Assembly (NCBI GenBank): GCA_021769625.1
Contig: JAETSN010000041.1
Coordinates: 1-39,084, forward strand
Direction of reading: 5' to 3'
Length of the DNA: 39,084 nucleotides
Source of the DNA: [Clostridium] symbiosum
Lineage (GTDB): Bacteria > Bacillota > Clostridia > Lachnospirales > Lachnospiraceae
Part shown: positions 16,754 through 25,600 of the stretch, one piece after another
Layout of the letters: each line of letters begins with the position of its first letter
Position numbering within the stretch: position 1 is the stretch's first letter
Position numbers and translations under genes: made by a program
The notes under the pieces: generated by a model
Database searches by the model: none
Told to the model about the DNA's origin: nothing
What the model saw: the letters and a program-made list of their open reading frames with translations, nothing else

Positions 16754-18205
<1,452 letters not shown>

Positions 18206-18223: not shown

Positions 18224-18562
18224 TTATTTATTTTCCAATTTTTTTAATCTCTCATCATATGCCGCAAAAATGCTGCACATCTGCTTAGCGATCATGATCT
18301 CGCTGTAGATCGTCATCAGGGTATCCTGCGCATGGGCAAACAGCACATTATAATCAAACTCCTCCCCTGCTATAGCCCCCTGAATACAATCTGTCTGAAT
18401 ATGATGTGCCTCCGCAATCCTGGCATCCGCTTCCTTTAAATGCTCTCCGGCCGCCGCCATATCCCCCGCCGCGATCGCGCCAAGCGCCGCCTGACAGCAG
18501 TTTCTGGCATCTCCCGCATGCATGATGATCTGCATCGCATTTTCTACTGTTTTCTCATTCAT
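18224..18562 (-). CDS. PTS lactose/cellobiose-family EIIA
   Basis: A 112-residue EIIA of the Lac/Cel family: a trimer-forming helical protein that passes phosphate from HPr to EIIB. The active His lies in LFAHAQDTLMT, the family signature near residue 75. The start at 18562 has GGGAGG 8 bases upstream; an ATG 15 bases earlier overlaps that site. It sits between EIIC and the GH1 enzyme, 98 nt after EIIC. The N-terminal part (ENAMQIIMHAGDARNCCQAALGA) is standard. Confidence 0.92.
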   Translation of the reverse strand: MNEKTVENAMQIIMHAGDARNCCQAALGAIAAGDMAAAGEHLKEADARIAEAHHIQTDCIQGAIAGEEFDYNVLFAHAQDTLMTIYSEIMIAKQMCSIFAAYDERLKKLENK

Positions 18563-18599
18563 AGAGCCACCTCCCATATATCGATTGTTATTTCTGCGG

Positions 18600-18660: not shown

Positions 18661-19914
18661 TTATTCTGCCGCCTCTTTCCCGCCTTCTTTCTTCAACTCG
18701 TTCGCCTCATAGGCTTTGAAGAACGGATACCAGATCAGTGTGGATACCGCTACCGATATGAGCAGGAAAATGATCGCCCTGAAACTTCTTGTATTGATCC
18801 ATGTGGAGATCGGATACGGGCAGTACCAGAGTTCAAACTGTACATCCGGGATCGGCGCAAACTTGATCACTTTCGTTCCGATCCATGTGAGCAGGGGAAT
18901 TAAAAGACCCTGCAGCCACATCGGAATCATCAGATAAGGATTCCATGCAACACAGCCGAAGATAACAGGTTCATTGATGTTAAAGATACCCGGCACAAGA
19001 CAAGCCCTGCCAAGAGATTTCAGTTCTTTTGACTTTGACAACACCAGAAGTATCACCAACGGCAACGTACATCCGATACCGCCTACCCACATATATGTAC
19101 AGAAAACAAGTCCCTCTGTAAAGATATTCATGCCTGCCGCTGTCGCTGTTCCTGCTGCGACCAGTTCCAGATTCGCTACGATAGCAGCCAGTTTAACAGG
19201 TTCGCTCACCGGCGTCAGCACCCAGCTTGAAATACCCATGGAGTAGATAAAGCAGGTAATGAACATGAATAATGTAAAGCCGTACCATGTCTGCAAAAAG
19301 CTCTGCAGCGGCATAAAGATGCTCAGAATGATGTTGTACAGGTTCACCTTCATAATCAGCACTACCACCCAGCCAAGTACGACAACCAGCCCCACCGGCA
19401 AAAGAGCATCAAACCACTGGCGCACAAAGTCGGGAATCGCGGAATCTTCTTTGAAGAATGTGAACTTCGCGAAAGCTCCCATGATCAGGCCTGTAATAAC
19501 ACCTGTTATCATTGCACAGAACATACCGCCGGCGCCCAGTGCAGAACTTCCGAAACCTACGGCACCCTCTTCTTCCACAATCGGTGTCACCACGATCAGA
19601 AACAGCAGCAGTCCGGAAAGTCCGGCGATCAGGCGCTGTTTTCTGTAGCGCTTTTTCTCGCAGTAGTTGAAAGGGATCAGAAATGCTACGAGAAGTGATA
19701 CCTTACCCATGGTCCAGCCAAAAGGCGTCCAAAAAGAAAACGGTAATGACACATAGTTTTCAATAATTGCCAGACAGCAGAATATGGAACCCAGAAAGAT
19801 AAAGGGCAGGATCTGCAGTACGGAATCTTTGATTGTTACAACCCAGATCATATTGCTGATCTTATTCATTTTAGGAGCAAAGCTGTTCTCCAGCCAGCTA
19901 ATCAGTTTTTGCAT
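18661..19914 (-). CDS. PTS lactose/cellobiose-family EIIC (membrane transporter)
   Basis: A 417-residue membrane permease that carries a beta-glucoside or similar disaccharide during phosphorylation. Many hydrophobic segments are seen from residue 29 on. The substrate-site motif IFNINEPVIFG (about 308-318) and the following AWNPYLMIP are the hallmark of the Lac/Cel EIIC family. A conserved FTEGLVFCTYMWVGGIG loop precedes it. The length is slightly below the common 430-450 residues, but no part is clearly missing. AAAAGGAGATAACAC precedes the ATG. EIIB lies 37 nt upstream. Confidence 0.93.
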   Translation of the reverse strand: MQKLISWLENSFAPKMNKISNMIWVVTIKDSVLQILPFIFLGSIFCCLAIIENYVSLPFSFWTPFGWTMGKVSLLVAFLIPFNYCEKKRYRKQRLIAGLSGLLLFLIVVTPIVEEEGAVGFGSSALGAGGMFCAMITGVITGLIMGAFAKFTFFKEDSAIPDFVRQWFDALLPVGLVVVLGWVVVLIMKVNLYNIILSIFMPLQSFLQTWYGFTLFMFITCFIYSMGISSWVLTPVSEPVKLAAIVANLELVAAGTATAAGMNIFTEGLVFCTYMWVGGIGCTLPLVILLVLSKSKELKSLGRACLVPGIFNINEPVIFGCVAWNPYLMIPMWLQGLLIPLLTWIGTKVIKFAPIPDVQFELWYCPYPISTWINTRSFRAIIFLLISVAVSTLIWYPFFKAYEANELKKEGGKEAAE

Positions 19915-19951
19915 TTGTGTTATCTCCTTTTCCTGTTCTTATTTTAAAAGT

Positions 19952-20269
19952 TTACTTTTCCCCAAAGAGCTCCAGGATCTGGTCCAGCGCCTTATCGCCG
20001 TTCAATTTTGCGTAGGCATCTTTGTCGATGAGCTCGATCTTGATATCGTACCCGTCACAGTCCTCCTCCAGAGAAGGGATCACTGTCGCCAGATGAGGCC
20101 CCACCATCAGGCAGTCGATATCCTCCACATAATTCAAAACCTCGGACTCGCTTCTCGCCGTCACGGTGATCTCGATTCCCCTTGCAGCAGCAGCCTTTCT
20201 GATATTTGCTGCCATAAATCCGCTGCTCGCACCGGAGCCGCATACCAATAATACATTGTGTTTAGCCAT
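19952..20269 (-). CDS. PTS lactose/cellobiose-family EIIB
   Basis: A 105-residue EIIB that receives phosphate on a cysteine and gives it to the sugar. The P-loop VCGSGASSGFMAANI at about 8-22 holds the active Cys. The start at 20269 (MAKHNVLLV) has AGGAGG 8 bases upstream; an 18-residue extension to 20323 is unsupported. It is the first gene after a terminator and a promoter, so EIIB-EIIC-EIIA-bglA can be transcribed separately from ptsI-ptsH-cof. Confidence 0.92.
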   Translation of the reverse strand: MAKHNVLLVCGSGASSGFMAANIRKAAAARGIEITVTARSESEVLNYVEDIDCLMVGPHLATVIPSLEEDCDGYDIKIELIDKDAYAKLNGDKALDQILELFGEK

Positions 20270-20302
20270 TGCTCTACCTCCTGTTTTATATTTGATAGAT
20301 CC

Positions 20303-20331
20303 ATTGTATTTTTTCCCAAACAAAAAAGCAA
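20303..20331 (-). promoter_or_regulatory. Promoter of the EIIB-EIIC-EIIA-bglA operon
   Basis: On the minus strand TTGCTT (20331-20326) and TACAAT (20308-20303) are separated by 17 bases. The leader would be about 30 nt. The -35 box overlaps the base of the terminator hairpin just upstream. Confidence 0.7.
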
Positions 20332-20366
20332 ACCGACTTTTTCACCCCCGGGGTGAAACGGTTTGC
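20321..20366 (-). terminator. Terminator with an embedded operator-like palindrome
   Basis: GCAAACCG/CGGTTTGC (20328-20335, 20359-20366) form an outer stem and TTTCAC-N7-GTGAAA an inner one, followed on the minus strand by TTTTTT. It would end transcripts of ptsI-ptsH-cof. Confidence 0.75.
20340..20358 (-). promoter_or_regulatory. Operator candidate 1 (TTTCAC-N7-GTGAAA)
   Basis: Palindrome centred at 20349, 18 bases from the upstream edge of the -35 box (20331). It is identical in half-sites and spacing to a second palindrome centred at 20391. Confidence 0.6.
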
Positions 20367-20373
20367 CTCAAAA

Positions 20374-20408
20374 ACAAAGATTTTCACCGTCAAAGTGAAA
20401 ATCTTTGT
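20374..20408 (-). promoter_or_regulatory. Operator candidate 2 in a 14-bp hairpin
   Basis: A perfect 14-bp inverted repeat with a 7-base loop contains TTTCAC-N7-GTGAAA centred at 20391, 42 bp (four helical turns) from operator candidate 1. On the minus strand it is followed by TTTTTG, so a weak terminator role is also possible. Confidence 0.6.
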
Positions 20409-20457
20409 ATCTGTTGAATATAAGGACAGTTCGCTAAACGCGCTGCCCGTTGTCTTT

Positions 20458-21288
20458 TTAATTGTCCTCAGATATCAGTCCGTATTTCAGAAAAGCATGA
20501 TAGACGCCGTCCTGCGCCACGGATTCCGTGACATCGTCTGCCGCCTTTTTCACATAATCCGACGCATTCCCCATGGCGATACCGACACCCGCCGCCTTCA
20601 GCATCTCGAGATCATTCTCGCTGTCGCCGATGGCTATCGTATCTTTCACAGGGACACCCAGATAATCGCTGAGATAATGCACCGCCGTACCTTTCGTAAA
20701 AGCCGTCTTTGTGATCTCACCGCTGTTTCCTCTTGTCTCCGCCTGAGAAAACGATGTCACGCTCATATCCCGCGCCTTCAGCCTTTCCCTGAACCAAAGG
20801 CTGTCCTCTTCCGCGTAAAAATAAGAGCATTTGTGTACCCTTTCGGCCTCCTCTACCATATCAAACGGAATCGTCTTATAGAAAAAACTCAGCATCAGCC
20901 TTTCTTCATCACGGGCACTTTCCAGTTCCCTGAAAAAACGTTCCCTGATATCCCTTTTCATGTAAAGGTTTTCAAAACCTTCCATAATATAGGTCGCCCC
21001 TGCTTCCTCCAGCAGGCCTGTCACAAACTCTTTTTCCTCTTCCGCAAAATATTCCGCCTGCAGAATTTCATCTTTCCACATAACACAGGCACCGGCAGCG
21101 CTGATCACACCGTCAAATCTCTTCATCCCCTCCGGCACCTCAGAGTATGCCCTGCCGGTACAGATACAGAGAAAATGTCCGTTGTCATATGCCTGTTTCA
21201 GTGCCTGTGCTACTTTCCCGGAAACAGGACCGCCGTTTTCCAGAAGAGTCCCGTCAATATCCAGAAATACCAGTTTTCTACTGCTCAA
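20458..21288 (-). CDS. Cof-type HAD phosphatase (HAD-IIB)
   Basis: A 276-residue cytosolic HAD-superfamily phosphatase of the Cof subfamily, usually active on sugar phosphates or nucleotide phosphates. Motif I FLDIDGTLL is at 9-17, motif II in ICTGRAYSEV, and motif III/IV in AIGDSENDLEMLKAAG, followed by GVAMGNA-like GIAMGNAS. The cap region lies between. It starts 2 nt after the ptsH stop (ptsH stop at 21291), so the two are translationally coupled. Its place between HPr and the EII genes suggests removal of toxic or non-metabolised sugar phosphates, which is inference only. Confidence 0.9.
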   Translation of the reverse strand: MSSRKLVFLDIDGTLLENGGPVSGKVAQALKQAYDNGHFLCICTGRAYSEVPEGMKRFDGVISAAGACVMWKDEILQAEYFAEEEKEFVTGLLEEAGATYIMEGFENLYMKRDIRERFFRELESARDEERLMLSFFYKTIPFDMVEEAERVHKCSYFYAEEDSLWFRERLKARDMSVTSFSQAETRGNSGEITKTAFTKGTAVHYLSDYLGVPVKDTIAIGDSENDLEMLKAAGVGIAMGNASDYVKKAADDVTESVAQDGVYHAFLKYGLISEDN

Positions 21289-21290
21289 AC

Positions 21291-21548
21291 TTACAGATTC
21301 TCCTTAAAGAATGCCTCTAAAGCTGCAGCAGCTTCCTCTTCCTGATCCCCCTCGCAGACAACGGTCACTTCGTTGTCCTTCTTAACACCCATAGCCATTA
21401 CATTCATGATCCTCTTCGCATTGCCCTTCTTCTCGCCGCACTTCAGGGTAATATCGCAGGGATACTTTGCCGCCTCCTTCACCAGAAGCCCCGCCGGACG
21501 GGCATGGATCCCCAGCGCATCCTGAACCGTGTAACTGAATTCCTTCAT
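21291..21548 (-). CDS. ptsH: HPr-family phosphocarrier lacking Ser46
   Basis: An 85-residue HPr that carries phosphate from Enzyme I to EIIA. His15 is present in GIHARPAG. The regulatory site of Firmicute HPr, Ser46, is Arg46 here (AKRIMNVM; codon AGG at 21411-21413), so HPr kinase could not phosphorylate it and it could not serve as CcpA co-repressor in the usual way. It is probably a dedicated paralogue; a canonical HPr may exist elsewhere. AAGGAGGA lies upstream of the ATG. It is separated from ptsI by 373 nt that contain a large palindrome, and directly precedes the Cof phosphatase. Confidence 0.93.
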   Translation of the reverse strand: MKEFSYTVQDALGIHARPAGLLVKEAAKYPCDITLKCGEKKGNAKRIMNVMAMGVKKDNEVTVVCEGDQEEEAAAALEAFFKENL

Positions 21549-21921
21549 GATAAAAATCCTCCTTCATTAAATTTGTTTTACTCTCTACCCATTATCAAGT
21601 ATTATCATTTTTCTGTCAAGCCCATTTGCCGGACCGTCTCCTGAACCAGTGTCATTTAGTTAATGGTGCCGGACGCTGGCAAGAACATAAAATACTTCGT
21701 CGCCACGCTCTCGCTGGCTCTGTTCTTCAAGAGCCTGTGAAAGAACGCAACGGACACATAAGGCGCTAAAATACAGCGCCTAAGTGCCGGCGTTTTTCAA
21801 AGGGCTCCTTAAGCATTTTATGTTCTTACCAGCTGACTGAGGTATTAACTGAATGTTGCCCTTCAGTCCCAGCCCCGGGAAGTATCTGCTGATGCCGCCC
21901 GGGGCGTCCGCATATGCAAAC
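21549..21921 (-). repeat. ptsI-ptsH gap holding a 159-nt palindromic element
   Basis: Outer arms at 21675-21697 and 21811-21833 pair over 23 positions, two of them G.T wobbles. Inside lie at least two further hairpins: GGCTCT/AGAGCC near 21716-21735 and a long imperfect stem closed by AGGCGCT/AGCGCCT around 21762-21782. No protein is encoded. The remaining parts of the gap show no clear feature beyond the ptsH ribosome site. Confidence 0.75.
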
Positions 21922-23532
21922 TTACATATTAACCACTTTATTGCGCACCGGCAGCACCATACCTGGCGACACCGAAAGCTCATCCACTCCCATATTCACA
22001 AACTCTTCGGTCAGCGTGGTATCCGCGCCGAGCTCTCCGCAGATGCCGGCCCAGATGCCCTCCTTATGGGCCGCATCCACCACCATCTTGATCATCCTGA
22101 GGATCGCGGGATGGTGCGCGTTGTAGAACATATCCAGCTTCGCGTTCTGACGGTCGATCGCCAGTGTATACTGGGTCAGATCGTTTGTGCCGATACTGAA
22201 GAAGTCCACTTCCTTCGCCAGTTCATCCGCAATGATAACGGACGCCGGTGTCTCGATCATGATACCGAACTCGATCTCGCCGACTTCCTTCCCCTCTGCG
22301 TGCAGTTCTTCCTTGATCTTTTCCAGAATATCTTTTACGGTCTGCACCTCCCATACGGAGATGATCATCGGCACCATGATAGCGATCCTGCCGTAAGCGG
22401 AGGCCCTGCAGAGTGCCCGAAGCTGTGTTTTGAAGACTTCCCTCTTATTCAGGCAGATCCTCACCGCGCGATAGCCGAGTGCCGGATTTTCTTCCTTATC
22501 CAGCCCGAAGTAATCGATCTGCTTGTCGGCGCCGATATCCAGCGTACGGATGATCACACGCTTACCGCCCATCTTCTCCGCAACCGCTTTATACGCCTCA
22601 AACTGCTCTTCCTCCGTCGGATAGTCGTTGCTCTGCAGATATAAAAATTCGCTCCTGAACAGCCCGATCCCCTCCGCATCGTTGGCGAGTACGGCTTCCA
22701 CATCCTCCACGCCGCCGATATTCGCATAAAGATTGATCTTTCTGCCGTCCTTTGTCACACTGGGTTTCCCCTTCAGGGAATTCAGCAGTTCCTGCTCCTT
22801 TTTCTGCGCTTCCAGTTTTTCCTGATAATCTTTTAATATCTCCTCATCCGGCTCCACGATCAGCTTTCCTTCCTTACCGTCCACGATGCCCATGAGGCCG
22901 TCCACATTCACCGCCTCCGACACCATGACCAACGCCGGAATGTTCATCGTGCGCGCCAATATCGCCGTGTGGGAATTGGTGGAACCCTTCCTTGTCACAA
23001 AAGCCAGCACTTTGCTGCGGTCAAGCTGCAGCGTCTCGCTGGGTGCAAGATCCTCCGCCACCAAAATAGAAGGTTCGTCCATCGCCGCGCCGCCTTCTTC
23101 CACGCCGGCAAGGATCCTCACTACCCTTGCGGAAATATCTTTTACATCCGCCGCGCGCTCTTTCATATAATCATCGTCCATGGCAGCAAAAATCTCTGAA
23201 AAGTTCTGTCCGGTCACGGAGACAGCATATTCCGCATTTAACTGCTCATCCCTGATCATCCCCTTAATGCTGTCAAGGTAATCCTCGTCTTCCAGCATCA
23301 TCTGATGCACCTCAAAAATCGCCGCATTTTCTTCGCCGACTTCAGCGACAGCCTTTTCATAGAGAACGCCAAGCTGGGATGCCGCAGTGTCCCTTGCTGC
23401 TTCAAACCGGGCTATTTCGGCTTCCACGTCAAAAACGGAGGTCCTGTTCACCTCCACTTTCTTTTCGCCAAACTCCCTGATCTTTCCGATGGCAACGCCC
23501 TTAAACGCCGCCTTCCCCGACAATACTTTCAT
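21922..23532 (-). CDS. ptsI: PTS Enzyme I
   Basis: A 536-residue phosphoenolpyruvate-protein phosphotransferase that starts the PTS relay. The active His188 lies in GSTNSHTAILARTMNIPALV. The PEP-binding barrel shows IGLFRSEFLYL, VIIRTLDIGADKQ, and the C-terminal FFSIGTNDLTQYTLAIDRQN. The start at 23532 has AAAGGAG 8 bases upstream; a GTG 18 bases earlier overlaps that site. Together with ptsH and the EII genes it makes this locus a self-sufficient relay. It is divergent from the PRD activator gene. Length is somewhat below the usual 570 residues, because the N-terminus and C-terminus are compact; no motif is missing. Confidence 0.95.
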   Translation of the reverse strand: MKVLSGKAAFKGVAIGKIREFGEKKVEVNRTSVFDVEAEIARFEAARDTAASQLGVLYEKAVAEVGEENAAIFEVHQMMLEDEDYLDSIKGMIRDEQLNAEYAVSVTGQNFSEIFAAMDDDYMKERAADVKDISARVVRILAGVEEGGAAMDEPSILVAEDLAPSETLQLDRSKVLAFVTRKGSTNSHTAILARTMNIPALVMVSEAVNVDGLMGIVDGKEGKLIVEPDEEILKDYQEKLEAQKKEQELLNSLKGKPSVTKDGRKINLYANIGGVEDVEAVLANDAEGIGLFRSEFLYLQSNDYPTEEEQFEAYKAVAEKMGGKRVIIRTLDIGADKQIDYFGLDKEENPALGYRAVRICLNKREVFKTQLRALCRASAYGRIAIMVPMIISVWEVQTVKDILEKIKEELHAEGKEVGEIEFGIMIETPASVIIADELAKEVDFFSIGTNDLTQYTLAIDRQNAKLDMFYNAHHPAILRMIKMVVDAAHKEGIWAGICGELGADTTLTEEFVNMGVDELSVSPGMVLPVRNKVVNM

Positions 23533-23580: not shown

Positions 23581-23610
23581 AATATACTAAATTTATAAAA
23601 TGGCAGGCAA
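23581..23610 (-). promoter_or_regulatory. Promoter of ptsI-ptsH-cof
   Basis: On the minus strand TTGCCT (23610-23605) and TATATT (23586-23581) with an 18-base spacer. The leader would be about 40 nt, ending in AAAGGAG before the ptsI ATG. Confidence 0.6.
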
Positions 23611-23617
23611 GCAATCT

Positions 23618-23639
23618 TTTTCACTGACGCGGTGCAAAA
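23618..23639. promoter_or_regulatory. Operator candidate 3 (TTTTCAC-N7-GTGCAAAA)
   Basis: Near-palindrome centred at 23628 with the same 7-base spacing as the two sites before EIIB, one base inserted in the right arm. Its centre is 18 bases from the upstream edge of the ptsI -35 box, the same geometry as at the EIIB promoter. It also lies just upstream of the activator gene's own promoter, so autoregulation is possible. Confidence 0.55.
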
Positions 23640-23645
23640 CATAAC

Positions 23646-23673
23646 TTGTTCTTATCCGCACTTATAGTATAAT
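23646..23673 (+). promoter_or_regulatory. Promoter of the PRD regulator gene
   Basis: TTGTTC (23646-23651), a 16-base spacer and a perfect TATAAT (23668-23673). The regulator's ATG is at 23681, 8 bases after the -10 box, so the transcript start would be at or next to the ATG. Confidence 0.65.
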
Positions 23674-23680
23674 TGGTCAC

Positions 23681-25600
23681 ATGGAACAAAAATATACTCA
23701 GATAACAAGGCTTCTGCTGGAACAAAACGGCTGGGTGAGGGCAGCTTTCCTCTCCGACCATATGGGTGTTTCCGTCAGGACCGTAAAAAACTACATATCC
23801 GAATTGAACAGCATCTATGCTTCCCTGATCGAATCATCCAGCAACGGATACCGCATAGATACGGAAAAGGCAGCCAAATTGCTGAACGATAACTCCCAAC
23901 ATATTCCGCAGACCAACAAGGAGAGGTCTTCCTATGTTGCCATCCGTCTCCTGCGCTCTCCCGAAGCTCTCTCACTTTTCGATCTCTGCGACGAGCTTTA
24001 TATCAGTATGTCCACGCTGCGCACCGTCATGAAGCGGACAAAACGGATGCTGGAACAGTATAATCTGATCCTTGCCTCTTCCGGCGACATTGTCGAGATC
24101 AGGGGCGAAGAACGCAACAGGCGCCGCATGCTCAGTTCCATTATCTTCGATGAATCCCAGCTCTCCTTTTTCAACATGGAAGCACTGCAGGATTCTTTCG
24201 ATGAAATTGATATTGATTATATCATAGAAACAGTAAATTTAATACTGTTTGCCCACAAATATTTTATTAATGATTTTGCGCTGTTTAACGTAGTGCTGCA
24301 TATTACGATCGCCGTTGACAGACATTTAAAACCGCACACTGCATTCAATTACAGCGACATATGTTCCCTCCTTCCGGATAACCCGATTTATGAACTCGCT
24401 CAGGAGCTGTGCGATGAACTGGAAAATTATTTTGAGATAAAATTCCATCACGCAGAACTCGAAGACTTTGCCTTCCTGCTCTACACATCCATCACGTCCC
24501 TGATGATAGACGATATCAACGAATCCAATCTGGCGGAATACGTGGGGGAGGAATGCATTGTCCTGGTGGATTCCATGTTTGTAAAACTGCAGGACGACTA
24601 CGGCGTTTCCCTGGAATCCGAAGAATTCCGCATCCGTTTTGCCCTGCACATCCGGGGGCTTTTGCTGCGCCGCAAGACAAGGCACTATAACCACAATCCG
24701 CTGACAGATTCCATCAAAACTTCCTGTCCGCTTATTTATGACGCAGCTGTCAGTCTGAGCAGCGTTATCGACAGCAATGACGATTACCCCCCCATTATTG
24801 ACGATGAGATTGCCTACATCGCTTTCCATATCGGCAATTATCTGGAGGAACAGCAGGCAGCCAGATCCCATATCCGGATCGTGCTGAACTGCCCCACCTA
24901 TTATGACATGAGCACGACCCTGAAACAGAAACTGATGGAAAGGTTCCATAACGATATCATCATCTCCAACATCACTTCCAATGAGCTGCAGCTCTCAGAA
25001 TCTCTGGATGATGCTGACCTGATCCTTTCCACGATCCCGCTGCAGGGTGCCATAGGCGTACCCAGCATCACGATCAATCCGTTCCTCACCTCAGCTGATG
25101 CGGGCATCATCGAGCGCACCATTGCCCAGCTCAAGGAAACAAAGAAAATAAATACTTTTTATCAGGAGCTCCGCAAACTCCTCGTGCCGCAGTTTGTAGA
25201 GCACATCAATAAACCGCTGTCCAAAGAGGAAGTCATCCACTATATGTGCCATAAACTTTTTGAGAACGGTTACTGTCTGGAAGATTTCGAAAAACGGATA
25301 CTGGAAAGGGAATCCCTCTCTTCCACCGTGATCCAGAACTTCGCTATCCCGCACACCGTAAAAATGCAGGAGATCAATTCCTGTATGTATATCCTGATCA
25401 ATGACGTACCGATGGAATGGGGCGAAACCGCCATCCAGCTTGTCATCATGCTGTGTTTTTCCCCGGCGGACAGGCAGCTTTTCAACACGATCTTTGACCC
25501 GCTTGCCATCACGCTCTTAAACCGCAGCACGGTAAAAGAACTCCTTACCATCAGTACGCCGGAAGAATTTCTGGATGTACTGGTCAACTCGCGGAAATAG
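23681..25600 (+). CDS. PRD/EIIB/EIIA transcriptional activator (LicR/MtlR/ManR type)
   Basis: A 639-residue activator controlled by PTS phosphorylation. The order is an HTH (10-45, LSDHMGVSVRTVKNYISELN), a second winged-helix region to about 150, PRD1 (about 175-280; His207 and His215), PRD2 (about 290-395; His323 and His383), an EIIB-like domain with Cys404 (VLNCPTYYDMS), and a fructose/mannitol-type EIIA domain with His558 (FAIPHTVKM). Such proteins bind DNA and activate when the PRDs and EIIA report sugar flux. The start at 23681 gives a complete HTH, but no ribosome site precedes it and the promoter's -10 box is 8 bases away. It is divergent from ptsI and convergent with the DUF3592-like gene, whose stop lies 5 bp away. 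Confidence 0.93.
   Translation: MEQKYTQITRLLLEQNGWVRAAFLSDHMGVSVRTVKNYISELNSIYASLIESSSNGYRIDTEKAAKLLNDNSQHIPQTNKERSSYVAIRLLRSPEALSLFDLCDELYISMSTLRTVMKRTKRMLEQYNLILASSGDIVEIRGEERNRRRMLSSIIFDESQLSFFNMEALQDSFDEIDIDYIIETVNLILFAHKYFINDFALFNVVLHITIAVDRHLKPHTAFNYSDICSLLPDNPIYELAQELCDELENYFEIKFHHAELEDFAFLLYTSITSLMIDDINESNLAEYVGEECIVLVDSMFVKLQDDYGVSLESEEFRIRFALHIRGLLLRRKTRHYNHNPLTDSIKTSCPLIYDAAVSLSSVIDSNDDYPPIIDDEIAYIAFHIGNYLEEQQAARSHIRIVLNCPTYYDMSTTLKQKLMERFHNDIIISNITSNELQLSESLDDADLILSTIPLQGAIGVPSITINPFLTSADAGIIERTIAQLKETKKINTFYQELRKLLVPQFVEHINKPLSKEEVIHYMCHKLFENGYCLEDFEKRILERESLSSTVIQNFAIPHTVKMQEINSCMYILINDVPMEWGETAIQLVIMLCFSPADRQLFNTIFDPLAITLLNRSTVKELLTISTPEEFLDVLVNSRK

Follow-up and report, generated by a model that had tools for sequence, protein, structure and literature searches.

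A predicted operator of a LicR/MtlR-type PRD activator and its overlap with a terminator-like hairpin in a divergent PTS locus of [Clostridium] symbiosum

In a divergent PTS locus of [Clostridium] symbiosum, a palindrome next to the EIIB promoter and a further copy between ptsI and the gene of an adjacent LicR/MtlR-type PRD activator are probably dimeric operators of this regulator, and a second palindrome farther upstream of EIIB is probably a terminator. The operator sequences of LicR-type PRD activators are not well characterized, and the papers found on them describe bacilli and streptococci. In this regard, if the distance between these sites and the -35 box is truly fixed, it could serve as a simple criterion to locate PTS regulons in gut Lachnospiraceae, and would predict how the polymerase is contacted. 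Likewise, if ptsH and ptsI are truly under one sugar-specific activator, the general PTS capacity and the PTS-linked catabolite control of the cell would be tied to a single substrate.

Palindromes and promoters of the divergent locus

The window, i.e. the whole 39,084-nt stretch of DNA that was analysed, carries a locus where PTS genes on the minus strand diverge from a PRD regulator on the plus strand (Table 1). It belongs to a genome of 4.08 Mb (96.6% complete, 145 contigs) in which we find a single EI at E <= 1e-100, together with seven EIIC matches of which six exceed the family cut-off. The GH1 protein of the locus is close to 6-phospho-beta-glucosidases. The regulator shows the LicR/MtlR-type architecture, with HTH_11, Mga, PRD (in two stretches) and PTS_EIIA_2 all above the Pfam cut-off, and is the sole protein of this type found in the genome, where the other PRD matches correspond to two short, presumably antiterminator-like proteins and a large, presumably LevR-like one, classes that we assigned from size and neighbours. 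A sequence search for relatives of the regulator with a solved structure returned none at E <= 0.001. In the accessible part of a published description, MtlR comprises two HTH domains, two PRDs and EIIB-like and EIIA-like domains, and LicR/MtlR-type proteins carry an EIIB-Gat-like domain between PRD2 and EIIA (PMC8560693); the Pfam scan reported no EIIB match for our regulator.

Two minor features of the locus can be mentioned here. The ptsI-ptsH gap of the window spans 373 bases, versus about 105 in the orthologous locus of genome G005 (L030), and contains an insert-like stretch (21645-21870), a dispersed MITE-like repeat with 48 matches in its own genome, itself counted and some of them overlapping partial matches. 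At the other end, the TATAAT of the regulator ends 7 bases before the ATG (23668-23681 region), with no ribosome-binding site visible in between and with the spacing conserved in the alignment, and the mRNA of the regulator may be leaderless.

Table 1. Genes and sequence elements of the locus, in coordinates of the window
Feature	Positions	Strand	Basis
ptsI (enzyme I)	21922..23532	-	protein-family match and sequence similarity
ptsH (HPr)	21291..21548	-	protein-family match
Cof-type HAD phosphatase, last gene before the palindromes	20458..21288	-	protein-family match and sequence similarity
EIIB, lac/cel type (ATG read at 20269-20267)	19952..20269	-	sequence, family match, similarity
EIIC, lac/cel type	18661..19914	-	family match and similarity
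EIIA, lac/cel type	18224..18577	-	family match and similarity
GH1, 6-phospho-beta-glucosidase-like	16754..18193	-	family match and similarity
LicR/MtlR-type PRD activator (639 aa; HTH_11, Mga HTH, two PRD, EIIA_2)	23681..25600	+	open frame, Pfam
Near palindrome TTTCAC-N7-GTGAAA, proposed operator at the EIIB promoter	20340..20358	.	exact match, 5/5 loci, register
Near hairpin (20366-20328) and T run (20327-20322), terminator-like, overlapping operator and -35	20322..20366	-	folding, alignment
EIIB promoter-like site: -35-like TTGCTT (20331-20326), 17-nt spacer, -10-like TACAAT (20308-20303)	20303..20331	-	read from sequence
Far palindrome, proposed intrinsic terminator of ptsI-ptsH-HAD; contains TTTCAC-N7-GTGAAA at 20382-20400	20374..20408	-	folding, conservation
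Third copy TTTCAC-N7-GTGCAA, proposed operator common to the ptsI and regulator promoters	23619..23637	.	5/5 loci, register on both sides
ptsI promoter-like site TTGCCT-N18-TATATT	23581..23610	-	consensus scan, alignment
Regulator promoter-like site TTGTTC-N16-TATAAT	23646..23673	+	read from sequence, conserved in alignment

A preliminary description of this DNA reported that the inverted repeat TTTCAC-N7-GTGAAA occurs twice before EIIB, with equal half-sites, with centres 42 bp apart and with the nearer centre 18 bp from the edge of the -35 box, and all these readings were confirmed, the two centres being located at 20349 (near palindrome) and 20391 (far palindrome), the latter within a longer palindrome of 35 nt. 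The exact pattern is found only in these two copies in the 4.08-Mb genome, and when one mismatch is allowed the number of sites rises to 18, versus 13 for the reversed pattern, figures in which no large regulon is apparent. Within the window, five matches with up to two mismatches were obtained, versus a mean of 1.83 in shuffled sequences, 6 of 100 shuffles reaching that number.

A third copy with one mismatch, missed in the preliminary description, lies in the gap between ptsI and the regulator. The first base of the proximal GTG is separated from the first base of the -35 box by 14 nt at the EIIB, ptsI and regulator promoters alike, and since this register is equal on both sides of the third copy, one operator would face two promoters symmetrically.

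Hairpins and conservation within the genus

When read on the minus strand, both EIIB palindromes give RNA hairpins followed by T runs, and the fold of the 171 nt concerned reaches -59.6 kcal/mol (z -6.44), a stability equalled by none of 200 shuffled sequences. A consensus scan of the window, with terminators defined by loops of 3-8 and a minimum of 3 G-C pairs and of 5 T in 8, did not list the EIIB promoter, nor did it list the EIIB hairpins as terminators.

The far palindrome forms a stable 15-bp stem followed by T's after the last gene of the operon, where it is conserved, and is most likely the intrinsic terminator of ptsI-ptsH-HAD, as judged from these features of its sequence. Among the five loci of the genus that bear the regulator, it is present in the window (G000) and in G005 only, letter for letter identical in both, its place being occupied by an unrelated hairpin in G001 and by none in G004 and G008. 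Moreover, the hairpin also follows HAD in two genomes in which the search gave no regulator ortholog, and there EIIB is not the next gene. In the first of them, G006, the hairpin is nearly the same, keeps the exact TTTCAC/GTGAAA core and precedes a gene that we take to encode an acylphosphatase-like protein, and the two PRD matches of the genome fall in one protein elsewhere; in the second, G007, which gave no PRD match, the hairpin persists through G-U pairs, with the DNA dyad broken.

These data bear on the model of the preliminary description, where two activator dimers would occupy both palindromes four helical turns apart on one face of the DNA upstream of EIIB. The exact half-sites at 42 bp, the letter-identity of the far palindrome in G000 and G005 and its exact core in G006 speak for such an arrangement, which is nevertheless quite unlikely: the far palindrome is missing from three of the five regulator-bearing loci, lies after HAD without EIIB next to it in G006 and G007, and in the latter has lost the dyad but kept the RNA pairing. 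No -35 box was found in register with it either, so that, given also this distribution, the binding of two dimers on one face is not supported. The regulator may still bind the far palindrome, and the sharing of the core by both palindromes is a feature that a pure terminator role of the far one does not explain.

In line with this shared core, both palindromes could alternatively be tandem intrinsic terminators of ptsI-ptsH-HAD only, with a core in common by chance or local duplication and no regulator bound, as would fit two stable minus-strand hairpins followed by T's, the far one recurring after HAD in G006 and G007. We regard this as unlikely, because the copy between ptsI and the regulator forms no stable hairpin (-5.5 kcal/mol, with other pairing) and follows no gene that it could terminate, but conserves the same core and register in all five loci, a register that moreover recurs in other genera.

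PTS operons are often under terminator/antiterminator control, and the hairpins upstream of EIIB could also be taken as a BglG/LicT-type switch in the leader of the EIIB operon, all the more as the genome encodes, at other loci, two short PRD proteins that are antiterminator-like. This kind of RNA control is highly improbable here, since the conserved promoter-like site of EIIB is located at and downstream of the hairpins, and its own transcript would therefore exclude them. In addition, no antiterminator-like gene is seen at the locus, where the regulator has HTH domains, and no Rfam family was found at the gathering score in 19900-20700 (six matches at E <= 1, all of them far below that score).

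The near palindrome, on which the operator proposal rests together with the third copy, is accompanied by a hairpin and six T's in all five genomes. Folding was done for the window, G001 and G008, and the other two genomes share the letters of that region. The stem of this hairpin is long and has a single internal mismatch in G001, G004 and G008, while in the window and G005, where four bases of the left arm are missing, the stem re-forms with a bulge. The promoter-like site of EIIB is kept in the five regulator-bearing loci, as seen in the alignment, with its -35 box at the 3' foot of the stem and partly within the T run. We read this stretch as a candidate operator and a candidate terminator in one, with the -35 box overlapping them. 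If true, the joining of terminator, operator and -35 box in a single stretch would be a compact design in which the pairing of the stem is separable from the letters of the operator.

The orthologous locus was found in four other genomes of the genus (L027-L030, from G008, G001, G004 and G005, respectively); counts out of five include the window, and the five loci are related, those of G004 and G008 closely. The near EIIB site is found in 5/5 loci, as is the one between ptsI and the regulator, with unchanged half-sites and variable spacers. The composite motif TNNCAC-N7-GTGNAAA-N7-TTG yielded 17 matches in nine genomes of the genus, all of them at these two sites and none elsewhere, and only in the five genomes with the regulator (0 in the four without its ortholog; 0 for the reversed control). 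In terms of direction, it was matched towards EIIB and towards the regulator in 5/5 loci each and towards ptsI in 4/5, the ptsI register of G001 ending in CTG, not TTG, and three matches in the reverse direction were obtained at the EIIB site of G001, G004 and G008. The EI of G006 and G007 is 95% and 94% identical, respectively, and inspection of their sequences shows that the ptsI -35/-10 region is kept and the distal half-site is gone, with a stretch similar to the proximal half remaining in G006. The ptsI tree did not resolve the timing of the gain or loss of the regulator.

Thus, the operator of a PRD activator that had been proposed for both palindromes of EIIB is supported for the near site, conserved in 5/5 orthologous loci, in fixed register, absent from the four genomes of the genus without an ortholog of the regulator and matched in geometry before some PTS genes of other genera, and is not supported for the far one, present in only 2/5. 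Paralogous PRD-PTS loci of the genus (five stretches) have no site or the proximal half only, as in G004_C3, where this half stands alone in register by eye; a looser scan of the same five stretches gave unrelated candidates in two. As a side observation, L027 (G008) has both operators intact but its regulator ortholog is broken into two frames that overlap; to judge from the sequence this is a frameshift or an assembly error.

Proposed mechanism and known PRD systems

In the mechanism that we propose, the regulator would bind TTT(T/G)CAC-N7-GTG(A/C)AAA, with its centre located 17-18 bp upstream of the -35 box (about -53 if the transcription start is canonical), and recruit RNA polymerase at three promoters, those of EIIB-EIIC-EIIA-GH1, of ptsI-ptsH-HAD and of its own gene, the latter two being driven from one shared operator. 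With a beta-glucoside present, which we infer as the inducer because of the GH1 and the lac/cel-type EII proteins, the regulator would adopt its active phosphorylation state, sit as a dimer on both operators and touch the polymerase at the -35 box from a fixed face. PTS phosphorylation via EI and HPr, which the regulator would help to make, would in turn set its activity, thus closing a feedback loop. The terminators, for their part, would keep the two minus-strand operons apart, and since the T run of the near palindrome overlaps the EIIB promoter, a short stretch could end one operon and carry the switch of the next one.

The general PTS genes ptsHI of Bacillus subtilis are controlled by GlcT, a PRD protein that acts as an RNA-binding antiterminator. 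PRD control of ptsHI would therefore be common to both cases, with a DNA-binding activator proposed in ours.

The closest parallels come from MtlR of B. subtilis, as far as its description in the accessible part of PMC3217849 goes. Like our regulator, MtlR is a PRD activator with HTH_11 and Mga-like HTH domains, and at PmtlA it binds TTGTCAC-N6-GTGCCAA, i.e. a CAC/GTG inverted repeat with TT and AA ends just upstream of a sigma-A -35 box; such a repeat just upstream of a sigma-A-like -35 box is also what we find. Moreover, a similar operator is present at the promoter of the MtlR gene itself (PMC3217849). The geometry, however, differs: an N6 spacer and about 25 nt from the GTG to the -35 box at PmtlA (25 nt as counted from the printed primers, PMC3217849) versus N7 and 14 nt here, so that the operator of PmtlA is 11 bp further from the -35 box, about one helical turn. 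Also, ptsHI, a proposed target here, is not named as a target of MtlR in the part of that paper that was available (PMC3217849).

In a similar way, the accessible text on UlaR2 of Streptococcus pneumoniae, another PRD activator of a PTS operon, gives a predicted matrix AACACARRMCTGTGTK with a CAC-N6-GTG core (PMC4324149), which shares CAC/GTG with our site and differs from it in the N6 spacer and in the flanks; the UlaR2 site is a predicted one only. The presence of the CAC/GTG core in the MtlR and UlaR2 sites indicates that this core is a common theme, of which N7 with 14 nt is a variant. Regarding gene content, the locus resembles that of streptococcal CelR, a PRD protein that activates a PTS operon for cellobiose with a phospho-beta-glucosidase, according to the available part of PMC3585215. 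The cre consensus of CcpA as given in the consulted part of PMC10992428, TGWNANCGNTNWCA, is misfit by the letters of the operator on inspection. A search of the literature on PRD operators, carried out largely outside subscription papers, found no name or description of this operator or locus.

Occurrence in other Lachnospiraceae genera

A search of 397 genomes of this family, sampled evenly out of a larger set, revealed relatives of the regulator in three other genera (28-38% identity at E <= 1e-70). The motif alone was not enriched in these 397 genomes, with 8 matches outside the window's genome versus 14 for the reversed control. Three of the 8 matches precede PTS genes, namely ptsH in G128, EIIB in G416 and, in G184, a gat-like PTS operon with a PRD-like regulator in its cluster. 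The cluster of G128, ptsH-ptsI-PRD-HAD-EIIB-EIIC-EIIA-GH1 as assigned by sequence similarity, has the gene set of the window; a site precedes ptsH, and a degenerate copy, again in register, lies upstream of EIIB.

All 57 EIIB matches outside the window were then surveyed over 350 bp upstream of each. The pattern CAC-N6/7-GTG-N11-TTG was present in 4/57 of these regions, versus a mean of 0.074 and a maximum of 2 in 1000 rounds of first-order resampling, and when other gaps from 2 to 25 were used on the same regions a single locus scored (gaps 6 and 17). The strict site was missing from the remaining 53. A scan blind to the letters, which required two 7-mers with symmetry at 6 or 7 positions in the true geometry plus a -10 box, also gave 4/57 at the true register, three of them common to the previous scan and the fourth, from G111, being TTTTCGT-N7-ACGAAAA. 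When the register was shifted by -10 to +5 the count was 0, except for one locus at +2 and two at +4, and resampled sequences gave a mean of 0.12 and a maximum of 2 in 100 rounds. Over 63 whole loci, some of them overlapping and with some matches falling in the same place, the geometry scan obtained 24 matches at the true register versus 7 to 16 at 14 other shifts. The site is in register in six of the ten EIIBs closest to that of the window, one of them degenerate and another with other letters, and by these scans in none of the remaining 47; the loci behind the geometry are thus a minority, made up of the closest ones to the EIIB of the window. The sites of L084 (EIIB gap), L085, L086 and L089 were first spotted by eye, from which the scans are independent, and no site was seen by eye in L087 and L088. 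The scan near PTS genes that the preliminary description had suggested thus found the geometry before some PTS genes elsewhere, no large regulon in the genome and no enrichment by motif alone in the family.

It is conceivable, as a tentative generalization, that LicR/MtlR-type activators of Lachnospiraceae use an inverted repeat with an N6/7 spacer whose proximal half begins 14 nt ahead of the -35 box and whose letters vary with the first HTH helix (CAC/GTG with Lys/Arg, CGT/ACG with Gln in G111), and that in the genus of the window this operator has been fused with a terminator hairpin, so that a self-regulating loop specific for one sugar would contain the only genes of the PTS phosphorelay that were found. 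A code linking residues of the first HTH to half-site letters was considered and set aside as suggestive only, many regulators with Arg at this position and other Gln regulators giving no such site in the scan.

Some isolated cases complete this survey. Upstream of the EIIB of G416_C41 there is a possible off-register TTTCG/CGAAA pair, seen by eye and not counted. A geometry match in G054 (L153), TTTTCCT/AGGAAAA, resembles the presumed motif of CelR, of the TTTTCC/AGGAAAA type. Finally, at positions 27-55 of the gap between the PRD gene and EIIB in G195 (L086), another palindrome similar to an operator, TGTGCAC-N7-GTGCACA, folds as a hairpin and is followed by a T-rich stretch, and the overlap of operator and terminator may thus occur in a second genus.
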